NCBI GenBank assembly: GCA_029260495.1 | Contig: JAJDDD010000006.1 | Coordinates: 62,001 to 126,000 of the forward strand | DNA from: Phycisphaerales bacterium | GTDB lineage: Bacteria > Planctomycetota > Phycisphaerae > Phycisphaerales > UBA1924 | Length of the DNA stretch: 64,000 bases | Direction of reading: 5' to 3' | In this document: piece after piece, positions 53,857 through 56,820 of the stretch | How the letters are laid out: every line of letters starts with the position of its first letter | How positions within the stretch are numbered: the stretch's first letter is position 1 | Notes under the pieces: generated by a model | Database searches by the model: none | What the model was told of the DNA's origin: nothing | What the model saw: only the letters and a program-made list of their open reading frames with translations | Program-made: the position numbers and the translations under genes

Positions 53857-55104
53857 TCAGGCGCCCTTGATGAGCGGCCAGTTGATTTTGTTGTGGTCGA
53901 GTGTGGGGAGCTTGGTTTCGATGACTTCGACGTACTTTTGGGCAGCGCCGGTGTTGAAGATGACGACGGACTGGCCGGGTTGAATGGCGCCCTGTTCGGC
54001 GCAGCGGGCGACGGCGCCGACACAGGCTGCCGCTTCAGGGCAGAGGGAAATGCCTTCGAGCGTCGTCGTGAGGCGCATCCAGTGTGTGAGAGAGTCTTCG
54101 TCGATGGCGCGGGCGCTGCCGCCGGATTCGCGGATGGCGTCGAGAATCAGGAAATCGCCGATTGCCTTGGGAACGCGGAGGCCGGAGGCGATGGTGTGTG
54201 CGTTTTCAGCTGGATCGGCGAAGCGCTCGCCTTGAGCGAAGGCAGCGGGGATTGGGGCGCAGCCGGTGGATTGGCAGGCGTGCATGGCGGGTTTGTCTGC
54301 GTTGGCGTCGAGCCAGCCGATCTGTTGGAGTTCGCTGAAGGCTTTCCACATGCCGATCAATCCGGTGCCGCCGCCGGTGGGGTAGAAGATGTGATTTGGC
54401 AGGCGCCAGTTGAGCTGTTCCGCGAGCTCCAGGCCCATCGTCTTTTTTCCCTCGATGCGGTAGGGCTCTTTCAGCGTGCTGATATCGAACCAGCCGAACT
54501 GGTCCGCGCCTTCGCGGATGATTTTGGCGCAGTCGGTGATAAGGCCGTTGACGAGGAAGGCGCGGGCGCCGAAGAGGGCTGCTTCATATTGATTGACGAC
54601 GGGTGTGTCTTCGGGCATGAAGACGAATGCTTCGAGTCCGGCGCGGGCGGCGTAGGCAGCGAGGGCGCCTCCGGCGTTGCCAGCGGTTGGGATGGCGATG
54701 TGTTTGACGCCGAGCTCTTTTGCCATGGAGACAGCCACAGAGAGGCCGCGTGACTTGAAGGAGCCGGTGGGGAGCTGGGATTCATCTTTGATGAAGAGCT
54801 GGGGGGGAGTTGAGGATGAGGAGAATGATTTGAAGAGGGCGGCGCCGAGCGCGGGGCAGGGGAGAAGGGGGGTCATGCCTTCGCCAAGCGTGACAATGTT
54901 TTCATTGTGTTCGACGGGGAGGAGTTCGCGGTAGCGCCACATGGTGGCGTCGCGGGCGGTGAGTTGATCGCGGGAGATTGCGCGGCTGACTGCGGGAAGG
55001 TCGTAGCGAACGAGCAGGGGGCGATCTTTGTGGGTGGTCGCAAGCTGGCGCGCTTCGAGACGCGAGCCGTCGATCGCGCCTTCCAGATGAGTGACAAAGC
55101 TCAT
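53857..55104 (-). CDS. thrC: Threonine synthase
   Basis: 415 residues from ATG 55104 (an extension to 55131 is in frame but unsupported). PLP lysine is in LPTGSFKSRGLSVAVS, with TAGNAGGALAAYAA (phosphate loop) and GGGTGLIGMWKAF. The N-terminal segment GEGMTPLLPC is typical of threonine synthases. It converts O-phosphohomoserine to threonine. It is transcribed with ubiE. Confidence 0.93.
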   Translation of the reverse strand: MSFVTHLEGAIDGSRLEARQLATTHKDRPLLVRYDLPAVSRAISRDQLTARDATMWRYRELLPVEHNENIVTLGEGMTPLLPCPALGAALFKSFSSSSTPPQLFIKDESQLPTGSFKSRGLSVAVSMAKELGVKHIAIPTAGNAGGALAAYAARAGLEAFVFMPEDTPVVNQYEAALFGARAFLVNGLITDCAKIIREGADQFGWFDISTLKEPYRIEGKKTMGLELAEQLNWRLPNHIFYPTGGGTGLIGMWKAFSELQQIGWLDANADKPAMHACQSTGCAPIPAAFAQGERFADPAENAHTIASGLRVPKAIGDFLILDAIRESGGSARAIDEDSLTHWMRLTTTLEGISLCPEAAACVGAVARCAEQGAIQPGQSVVIFNTGAAQKYVEVIETKLPTLDHNKINWPLIKGA

Positions 55105-55219
55105 GGATCGTGCTCCTGGGCGCCGCGGCATGGGGCTCGCAGCGGTGAACGTATGCTACTGGCCGGGCGCGCTGGCGCGGCGTCGGGCGGGAGTGAACCG
55201 ACGGGCGTATACTCGTTCT

Positions 55220-56348
55220 ATGCATTATGAGACTCATCAACCGGTCATTAATGACCTTGAGGCGCGGATCTTGACAATCCGTGACTCTCTTTAACTACGA
55301 CGCAAAGAAGTCGCGCTTGGGGGAGCTTGAAGAGAAAATGGCTGCGCCGGGATTCTGGGACAAGCCCGATACGGCGCAGAAGGTCGTGGGTGAGCTGAAG
55401 GTGGTGAAGGCGCAGATCACGCCTTTGGAAAAACTTCATGCTGAGCTTGAAGATGCGCAGGTCGCGTTTGAGCTTTCCAAGGAAGCGGGCGACGCGGAGC
55501 TTCTCTCTGAGGCGGATGAACAGCTCTTTGAGCTTGGCAAGCGCATGGAGCAGGTGGAGTTGCAATCGCTGCTCTCGGGTAAGCACGATCATCGCAACGC
55601 CTTTGTGACTATCTCAGCGGGCGACGGCGGCACCGAGGCGAACGATTGGGCGGAGATGCTCTTTCGGATGTACCTCAAGTTTTTCGATCGGCGCCCGGAG
55701 TGGAAGATCGAAGAGCTCTCCATGCAGCATGGCGTTGAAGTCGGGATCGACTCGGTGACGCTGCGGGTTTCCGGGCCCTTTTCGTATGGGTACCTTTCGT
55801 GTGAGCGCGGGACGCATCGGCTGGCGCGGGTGAGTCCGTTTAACGCTCAGGGCAAGCGGCAGACGAGCTTCGCGACGGTGGACATCATTCCTGAGTTTGA
55901 AGAGACGGATCTTGAGATTCCGGATGAAGAGCTTGAGTTCACTTATTTTGCGCGCTCAAGCGGGCCTGGCGGGCAGAATGTGAACAAGGTCGCGTCAGCG
56001 GTGCGCGTGGTTCATAAGCCGACTCAGATCATGGTTGTGTCGAGCACGCATCGTGATCAGTTCCAGAACAAACGTCAGGCGCTCACTATTCTTCGGGCCA
56101 AGCTCGAACAGATTGAGGAAGAGAAGCGCGAGAAGGAACTTTCGGAAGCGACGGGCGGGGCGGTTGATCGGGGCTGGGGCACCCAGATTCGCAGCTATGT
56201 GATCTATGACAATCGCGTGAAAGACCACCGGACTGGGTACGAGATCGGCAATCCGCAGACCGTGCTCGATGGCGACCTGCAGGGTTTTCTTGACGCTGAA
56301 CTCAAGCGCAGAAGGCGCGAGCTTGCGGACCAGGCGATGAAGAAGTGA
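55220..56348 (+). CDS. prfB: Peptide chain release factor 2 with programmed +1 frameshift
   Basis: The protein is encoded in two frames. Frame A runs from ATG 55220 through residues ending ARILTIRDSL to a stop at 55292-55294; frame B continues NYDAKKSRLGELEEKM after a +1 slip on CTT (55289-55291), giving about 375 residues. RF2 markers are SPF in RVSPFNAQGKR and GGQ in SSGPGGQNVNKVASAV. The slip site is CTT TAA C, so the stop is UAA, not the usual UGA. The SD-like AGGGGG normally a few bases before is missing. A GTG at 55281 in frame B could start a shorter form, but the frame A part aligns with other RF2 N-termini. Confidence 0.92.
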
Positions 56349-56364
56349 GCAATTTTTTGAGTAG

Positions 56365-56820
56365 TCAGGCGAGCGAATAGAAGCCTTGGCCGGTGTTTTT
56401 GAGTCTGCCAGATTTGGCGAGTTCGCGCCAGATTTCTGCTGGGAAGTCAGTGGGCGGGATGATGGCGTCGATTTCAGATTTTCGTCCGCCTGAGAGTTGT
56501 CGTCCGCCGAGCTTGGACTCATCCGCGAGGCGCATGACTTTAAGGCGCTTGCGAAAAGCGCGAAGGGCGGCGGCGAGATCGTCATCGGAGAAGGTGGCGC
56601 CTTCTGTTGGCGCCGCTTCCTTGGGGTTTTCAAGGGAGGAGACGATCGTGTCGAGGCGGGCTGCGTCATGTTCCTTGCAAGTGCGCTCGAGCTCTGATTG
56701 ATCGATCGGCATGCGCCCAAGCAAACGCTGTACAAGATCCCATGCTGCTTGCGATTCTGCCGGGTTCGCTGAGGCTTGGATCTCATCGACCAGTTGTCTG
56801 ATTTTTTGTAGAGCGTTCAT
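56365..56820 (-). CDS. Hypothetical protein
   Basis: 151 residues, ATG 56820. The first half is helical and acidic (QKIRQLVDEIQASANPAE, WDLVQRLLGRMPIDQSELE); the second half has a Lys/Arg-rich stretch (RAFRKRLKVMRLADESKLGG) and a conserved-looking PPTDFPAEIWRELAKSGRL. No family recognised. It converges on prfB with 16 bp between stops and is followed upstream (minus strand) by the sigma/anti-sigma pair. Confidence 0.55.
   Translation of the reverse strand: MNALQKIRQLVDEIQASANPAESQAAWDLVQRLLGRMPIDQSELERTCKEHDAARLDTIVSSLENPKEAAPTEGATFSDDDLAAALRAFRKRLKVMRLADESKLGGRQLSGGRKSEIDAIIPPTDFPAEIWRELAKSGRLKNTGQGFYSLA

Follow-up and report, generated by a model that had tools for sequence, protein, structure and literature searches.

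How is release factor 2 (RF2) made from a prfB gene in which a short reading frame is stopped by UAA ahead of the RF2 frame, and in which the slip site is not preceded by the SD-like element of the well-known +1 frameshift? In the window, i.e., the complete stretch of 64,000 nucleotides analyzed from a Phycisphaerales bacterium (assembly GCA_029260495.1, contig JAJDDD010000006.1, positions 62,001 to 126,000), prfB is split into a short zero-frame ORF and an RF2 body (FNYDAKK...) that is encoded solely in the +1 frame until position 56348. The following elements define this layout:

55220..55294, + strand: zero-frame ORF of 24 codons plus TAA, encoding peptide MHYETHQPVINDLEARILTIRDSL, opening at ATG 55220 and ending in CTT TAA (55289-55294)
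55289..55295, + strand: slip site CUU UAA C, read from the sequence, with the final C at 55295
55293..56348, + strand: RF2 body (prfB) in the +1 frame, TIGR00020 at 410.5 bits (cut-off 370)
55272..55274, + strand: TGA in the sequence, a stop closing the RF2 frame ahead of the slip site, situated in a hairpin loop
55281..55283, + strand: GTG in the RF2 frame, a candidate alternative start here, though rejected as a general route

From the host genome (22 contigs, 3.2 Mb, completeness 96.8%), a single strong match to RF2 can be deduced, and the next-best protein, at 35% identity, is taken to be the putative RF1. The nearest RF2 relatives are encoded in metagenome genomes, mostly of Phycisphaerales, Phycisphaerae or Planctomycetota. 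In the following, the order is Phycisphaerales, with sampled relatives in six families (f1 to f6), and class and phylum are those of the window's host.

A search for RF2 covered 150 genomes from the family of the host (140 matched) and 251 from its order (242 matched). The order sample comprises the 5' regions of 185 prfB loci from the six families, with 20 of the 140 matching family genomes outside the sample and f2 to f6 represented by 65 chosen loci. Loci L190 to L269, largely duplicates of other genomes, were excluded from counts and kept only in a 157-row tree, from which identical proteins were removed; L118 and L119 are repeats of G014 and G141, respectively. Most statistics refer to 172 sites of the order, 67 of other orders of the class and 16 of other classes of the phylum, without L174, L288, L305, L310 and L311, which are situated close to contig ends.

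As proposed in a first-pass annotation of this DNA, the heptamer CTT TAA C is present at the slip position. RF2 continues only in the +1 frame, and the alignment of the relatives' recoding regions it had called for places the slip site in register in 173 of the 185 order loci, hence neither chance nor error. UAA replaces UGA not only in the window but in 125 of these 173 sites, the other 48 having UGA. CTT is conserved in 171 of 172 order sites, likewise the final C (171/172), and an ATG stands 69 nt ahead of the slip site in 143 of 170 members. In L093, GTT TAA A is found in place of CTT TAA C, together with a G/G mismatch in the stem described below (L093:189-225). At one further locus, L042, CTTTGAC is visible in a sequence too short upstream for analysis. 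The remaining 11 loci (L041, L050, L059, L073, L081, L161, L164, L170, L173, L179 and L189) lack a slip site and show an RF2 start that is in-frame or otherwise altered. In-frame relatives, named earlier as evidence that would speak against recoding, thus do exist, but they are a minority restricted to two of the six families (f1 and f6) and represent losses of the frameshift.

The choice of stop codon varies between families (UAA/UGA among the 172 sites: f1 91/23, f2 10/14, f3 1/0, f4 0/6, f5 4/2, f6 18/3), so that UAA is the majority in the sampled order and not in every family. In the other orders of the class, 65 of 67 sites have UGA and 2 UAA, and all 16 sites from other classes of the phylum have UGA. 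On FastTree phylogenies, the stop codon switches at least 15 times (157 rows) or at least 24 times (239 mostly short rows, 85 of which have at least 300 residues), and UAA and UGA therefore interconvert often. Among the loci left aside, L174 is an additional order site with UAA and seven core pairs of the stem, L288 (f16) has UGA and one core pair, and L311 has UGA, three core pairs and an SD-like GGAGG. No slip site was found in the 5' regions of L305, L310 and L294 (f15), and in L324, from another class and inspected over 90 nt, the slip site is doubtful.

Synthesis of RF2 might also dispense with frameshifting altogether if initiation took place at GTG 55281 or a later internal codon. Since the RF2 frame is shut 5' by the TGA at 55272, this GTG is the only possible in-frame start in the window, and a GTG is likewise offered by other order sites with the codon pair CGT GAC (CGT in 19 sites). 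It is not conserved, however: between the upstream stop and the slip site, 130 of 172 order sites have no ATG, GTG or TTG in the RF2 frame, so that a frameshift is needed in these, while in 19 such a codon occurs only close by, and in 23 at a greater distance upstream (4 of these with a frame that stays open to the end of the DNA examined). The loop triplet in the RF2 frame is TGA in 85 and TAA in 51 sites, i.e., a stop in 136 of 172. As the zero frame and the slip site are conserved in addition, the GTG start, already considered in the first-pass annotation, was rejected as a general explanation, and production of RF2 by internal initiation is very improbable.

The start of the zero frame itself is preceded by a further element:

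55208..55213, + strand: TATACT in the sequence, a -10-like hexamer ending 6 nt ahead of the prfB ATG

A TANNNT motif beginning at -15 to -11 is shared by 95 of 170 order members, and 54 of 170 have an SD-like tetramer no more than 20 nt from the start, with none ahead of the window's ATG (55208-55219). A sigma-70 scan of the region around 55208 did not find a full promoter. Judged from these motifs, the proximity of TATACT to the ATG and the lack of an SD suggest a leaderless prfB mRNA.

At the slip site, an SD-like AGGGGG 3 nt before CUU was not found in the window. When the 13 nt preceding CUU are paired with the 16S tail ACCUCCUUU, the most stable duplex has +0.6 kcal/mol, compared to -10.2 kcal/mol for AGGGGGUAU, and the 16S rRNA of the host genome has a normal tail ending in GGATCACCTCCTTT. 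Over the order, the median is +0.4 kcal/mol, and values of -4 or below are reached in just 1 of 172 sites. Pairing with a longer 16S tail was considered and rejected: GAUC-containing tails reach -5.7 kcal/mol in the order, while the core tail gives no such SD. Hence, the element whose loss had been noted is indeed missing, but the conclusion that the stimulator is absent goes too far, as a conserved and covarying hairpin fills its place:

55259..55287, + strand: hairpin with a core stem of 7 pairs (55263-55269 with 55277-55283), loop 55270-55276, a lower stem of 3 pairs (55259-55261 with 55285-55287) and a G/A mismatch between both (55262, 55284)
55286..55288, + strand: conserved E-site codon UCU, present in 141 of 172 order sites

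The inverted repeat lies directly 5' of the slip site, with the pattern GAG-G-CGCGGAU(7 nt)AUCCGCG-A-CUC-U-CUUURAC. Of the 172 order sites, 165 form all seven core pairs and the remaining 7 form six; the lower three pairs are complete in 155, compared to 13 of the 67 sites from other orders of the class. The stretch between GAG (55259) and the slip site is near-invariant, with a mean column identity of 91% over 93 distinct order sites, and synonymous variation is seen just before GAG (codon -1: CTC 93, CTT 53, CTG 8, TTG 5, TTA 4; codon -2: GAC 80, GAT 53). The frequency of the UCU codon contrasts with general serine codon usage: over 58 RF2 bodies from the order, TCT makes up just 3% of serine codons. 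In families f18, f20, f23 and f24, the E-site codon is UGG instead (TGG CTT TRA C; L287, L290, L295-L297 and L365-L368, i.e., 9 of the 67 other-order sites).

RNAalifold recovers the core stem unaided. In the 93 distinct sites, 97.4% of the cells pair, compared to 28-47% after displacement of the partner by 1-3 columns, and 10 double-sided changes are counted against a shuffle mean of 1.3. In L174, all seven pairs are kept with Ser TCG where others have Ala GCG. Among the 67 other-order sites, none of the slip-bearing ones being left out, pairing is seen in 92.5% of the core cells and 23 double-sided changes face 5.6 in shuffles, and the number of pairs with a double-sided change, two, shows no excess over shuffles. 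A search of 55000-56400 with the Rfam 15 covariance models gave no match at E up to 1. The hairpin appears within the predicted fold of 55220-55330, whose z score is only -1.2. Recoding with synonymous codons places 58 of the 93 distinct sites in the best 5% (median z -2.26) and the window at 6.4%, a moderate outcome. Plain fold energy was discarded as proof of the hairpin, as relatives with an in-frame gene fold nearly as well: the best 29-nt segment has a median of -13.1 in 172 frameshifted and -11.9 in 11 in-frame members, with no separation.

These similar energies fit the possibility that the hairpin has no role in frameshifting: constraints on the peptide EARI..IRDSL and its codons would create the stem, and CUU UAA C, preceded by the UCU E-site codon, would slip unstimulated. 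Part of the stem indeed follows from the RI..IR codons alone, and 2-6 of the 7 core pairs are retained in the seven in-frame relatives that can be aligned; pair 5-25, however, is broken in all seven. The strongest contradiction comes from columns 6 and 24, which hold the wobble positions of an Ala (GCN) and an Arg (CGN) codon. Both positions are four-fold degenerate and thus free of constraint by the protein. In class sites having both codons, these columns form a standard pair in 227 of 230 cases (G-C 165, C-G 41, G-U 16, A-U 5; exceptions A-C 2 and A-G 1), whereas shuffling reached at most 223 within families (10,000 tries) and 173 globally (2,000 tries). Family f11 alone shows C-G 5, G-C 4, G-U 1 and A-U 1, and column pair 9-21 covaries too. 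Independent C/G flips of column 6 are matched by column 24 in 3 of 3 cases on the 157-row tree and 4 of 4 on the 239-row tree, too few for significance in a sign test; A/G changes of column 6 (157-row tree) give mixed pairs with a mostly unchanged partner, as G-U pairing allows. Codon choice is likewise at odds with protein constraint, GCG and CGG being used in 166 and 167 of the 172 order sites, respectively, versus 36% of Ala and 22% of Arg codons in the same genes, while the 58 RF2 bodies of the order prefer GCC (52%) and CGC (58%). A hairpin without a role in frameshifting is consequently improbable.

Function as a transcription attenuator, with the hairpin followed by a pyrimidine-rich tail, would account for a terminator scan flagging 55263-55283 (1 found, 0.1 expected in shuffles). 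Yet C and A interrupt the T run, the position of the element is fixed relative to the slip site, and the seven aligned in-frame prfB genes lack the full core, all of which makes attenuation highly unlikely.

For tracing the hairpin beyond the order, the covariance model R1 was used, which matches 190 of 248 sampled class genomes compared to 18 of 246 sampled phylum genomes. The latter matches comprise 10 order members, 2 other class members and 6 members of other classes, these six being weak (E 2.6e-4 or worse), with RF2 located in five and two of these hits at prfB. As 40 of the 67 other-order sites were chosen by the R1 model, this set is biased towards the hairpin. Among the 28 slip-bearing other-order sites chosen by protein, seven core pairs are found in 16, six in 5, five in 2 and three or fewer in 5, the last belonging to f7 (both sampled), f12 (one of two) and f16 (both sampled), all within the class. 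In most other orders of the class, pair 6-24 is flipped (GCC..CGG), a weak SD-like GGGA is kept, and the stop is nearly always UGA. GGGA lies near the slip site in 46 of the 67 sites (median of the SD core -4.0 kcal/mol), mostly as flipped stem GCCCGGAU..AUCCGGGAC, and the SD median of the other 21 is +0.4 kcal/mol. Other classes of the phylum mostly have an SD-like sequence without the full stem: in the 16 sites, the SD median is -4.3 kcal/mol (to -11.4), 12 are at -4 or below, and 1-5 core pairs are formed, with L320 as outlier at 6. At this locus, inspected over 90 nt, CTTTGAC is located further upstream and accompanied by an SD-like AGGAG, and 6 of the 7 registered pairs are formed; it represents either chance or an independent case and counts against a clean phylogenetic split. 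Of the 192 class sites that lack GGGA, 125 have UAA, as does 1 of the 47 that contain it. The probable succession started from an SD, passed through a stage with the hairpin plus a weak SD and led to the hairpin alone, with UAA tolerated.

The distribution of GGGA also bears on a reading in which rRNA pairing is still the stimulator. The core hairpin would then act as a spacer that, by folding away, lets the anti-SD pair with AGG (columns 2-4, 55260-55262) close to the slip site. Where GGGA is lacking, 181 of 192 class sites contain AGG, compared to 10 of 47 where it is present; however, AGG also supplies the 5' strand of the lower stem, and this accounts equally well for the association. We know of no bridged SD in elongation. 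Moreover, the +1 shift normally requires the SD 3 nt before the slip site, according to the account in Atkins 2016 (PMC5009743). A displaced SD is therefore unlikely, albeit less so than a hairpin without a role.

Taken together, the sequence of the window, a gene layout that requires frameshifting in most relatives, the missing SD, the conserved covarying hairpin and the exchange of both elements along the phylogeny point to an autoregulatory prfB +1 frameshift with a swapped stimulator, where refolding of the hairpin in the mRNA exit channel replaces the SD/anti-SD helix; we assign this reading a probability of roughly two in three. With CUU and UAA occupying its P and A sites, respectively, a ribosome would pause until a release factor arrives. 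At this point, the core stem would have its 3' arm at -12 to -6, near the place of the E. coli SD/anti-SD helix, for which -9 to -4 results from the 3-nt spacing given in Atkins 2016 (PMC5009743). The upper stem could refold inside the exit channel, whereas zipping of the lower stem, in which GAG pairs with CUC (-4 to -2), would be possible only through invasion of the E-site codon UCU. This zipping would shift the mRNA by one base and allow the leucyl-tRNA to re-pair on UUU, resulting in RF2 synthesis, while abundant release factor would lead to termination as a 24-residue peptide instead.

UAA is recognized by RF1 as well as RF2, and a switch built on it would therefore sense both factors, as had been anticipated in the first-pass annotation. 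The 44 window ORFs of at least 200 residues end in TGA (29), TAA (10) or TAG (5), and with 29 of 44 ending in TGA, the demand for RF2 in the host looks high. Quenching of a UAA sensor by RF1 would also be expected, except where most UAA termination is handled by RF2, and RF2 is suggested as the main UAA terminator for most taxa in Prince et al. 2025 (PMC12421855). More tentatively, at somewhat less than even odds, it may be proposed that across most of the class prfB gave up its SD/anti-SD helix in favor of a 5' mRNA hairpin acting as a spring in the exit channel, thus gaining a natural +1 stimulator residing wholly within the mRNA, and that in Phycisphaerales the GGGA remnant was then lost and UGA mostly became UAA, with RF2 synthesis sensing the joint capacity of RF1 and RF2.

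The gene prfB is the textbook bacterial +1 frameshift and has been described with one near-invariant design. In the main text of Prince et al. 2025 (PMC12421855), surveying 12,753 RefSeq genomes, TAA is reported in 1.4% of 8,164 motif genomes from several phyla and as 'not ... broadly fixed throughout particular clades', and the SD-like element as almost universal; the terms planctomyc and hairpin are absent from that main text. UAA at prfB is thus already published as a minor variant, and the RefSeq survey may hold few of the present, largely metagenome, genomes. The UAA majority in one order contradicts the view of UAA as merely scattered and raises cross-regulation of RF1 and RF2 as a testable question. 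If true, the class-wide hairpin swap would mean that size and place of the duplex behind the E site matter, whatever the partner, and the class would supply natural sequences for testing the duplex requirement. A natural upstream hairpin in prfB was not found in a search of open-licence PMC literature, nor is one named for prfB in the consulted parts of a 2026 Pseudomonas prfB paper and a 2013 frameshift survey.

With the canonical E. coli-type prfB frameshift, as outlined in PMC12421855 and PMC5009743, the locus shares the gene, the place, the CUU slip codon, the A-site stop, the C after the stop, the UCU spacer codon and RF2 in the +1 frame, the spacer codon typically being UAU or UCU according to PMC13245932. 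In contrast to that system, the window has a 5' hairpin instead of the SD-like AGGGGG, and UAA instead of UGA is found in most order sites. Synthetic upstream hairpins described in Cho 2013 (PMC3639245) and Huang 2018 (PMC6321510) also adjoin the E site, refold behind the ribosome and stimulate +1 slipping, including at CUUUGA in 70S extract. In the E. coli extract experiments reported in Huang 2018 (PMC6321510), a 12-bp hairpin next to the E site gave about 60% of the +1 stimulation by an SD at CUUUGA, and only without RF2, and a destabilized version stimulated much less. The synthetic hairpins are designed, with 6 bp (yeast) or 12 bp (70S), whereas the prfB element is natural and conserved and has 7 core and 3 lower pairs. 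That its stem is shorter than the 12-bp hairpin counts against the favored explanation; in yeast, a 6-bp hairpin stimulates the +1 shift, as stated in Cho 2013 (PMC3639245). The 5' stem loop in bypassing of T4 gene 60 is likewise natural, acts on a bacterial ribosome and, in the description of PMC5009743, is proposed to zip in the exit channel and to pull the mRNA, albeit for a long hop with take-off and landing codons and not for a one-base slip as in prfB. By analogy with these cases, the element in the window looks like a natural prfB version of such hairpins.
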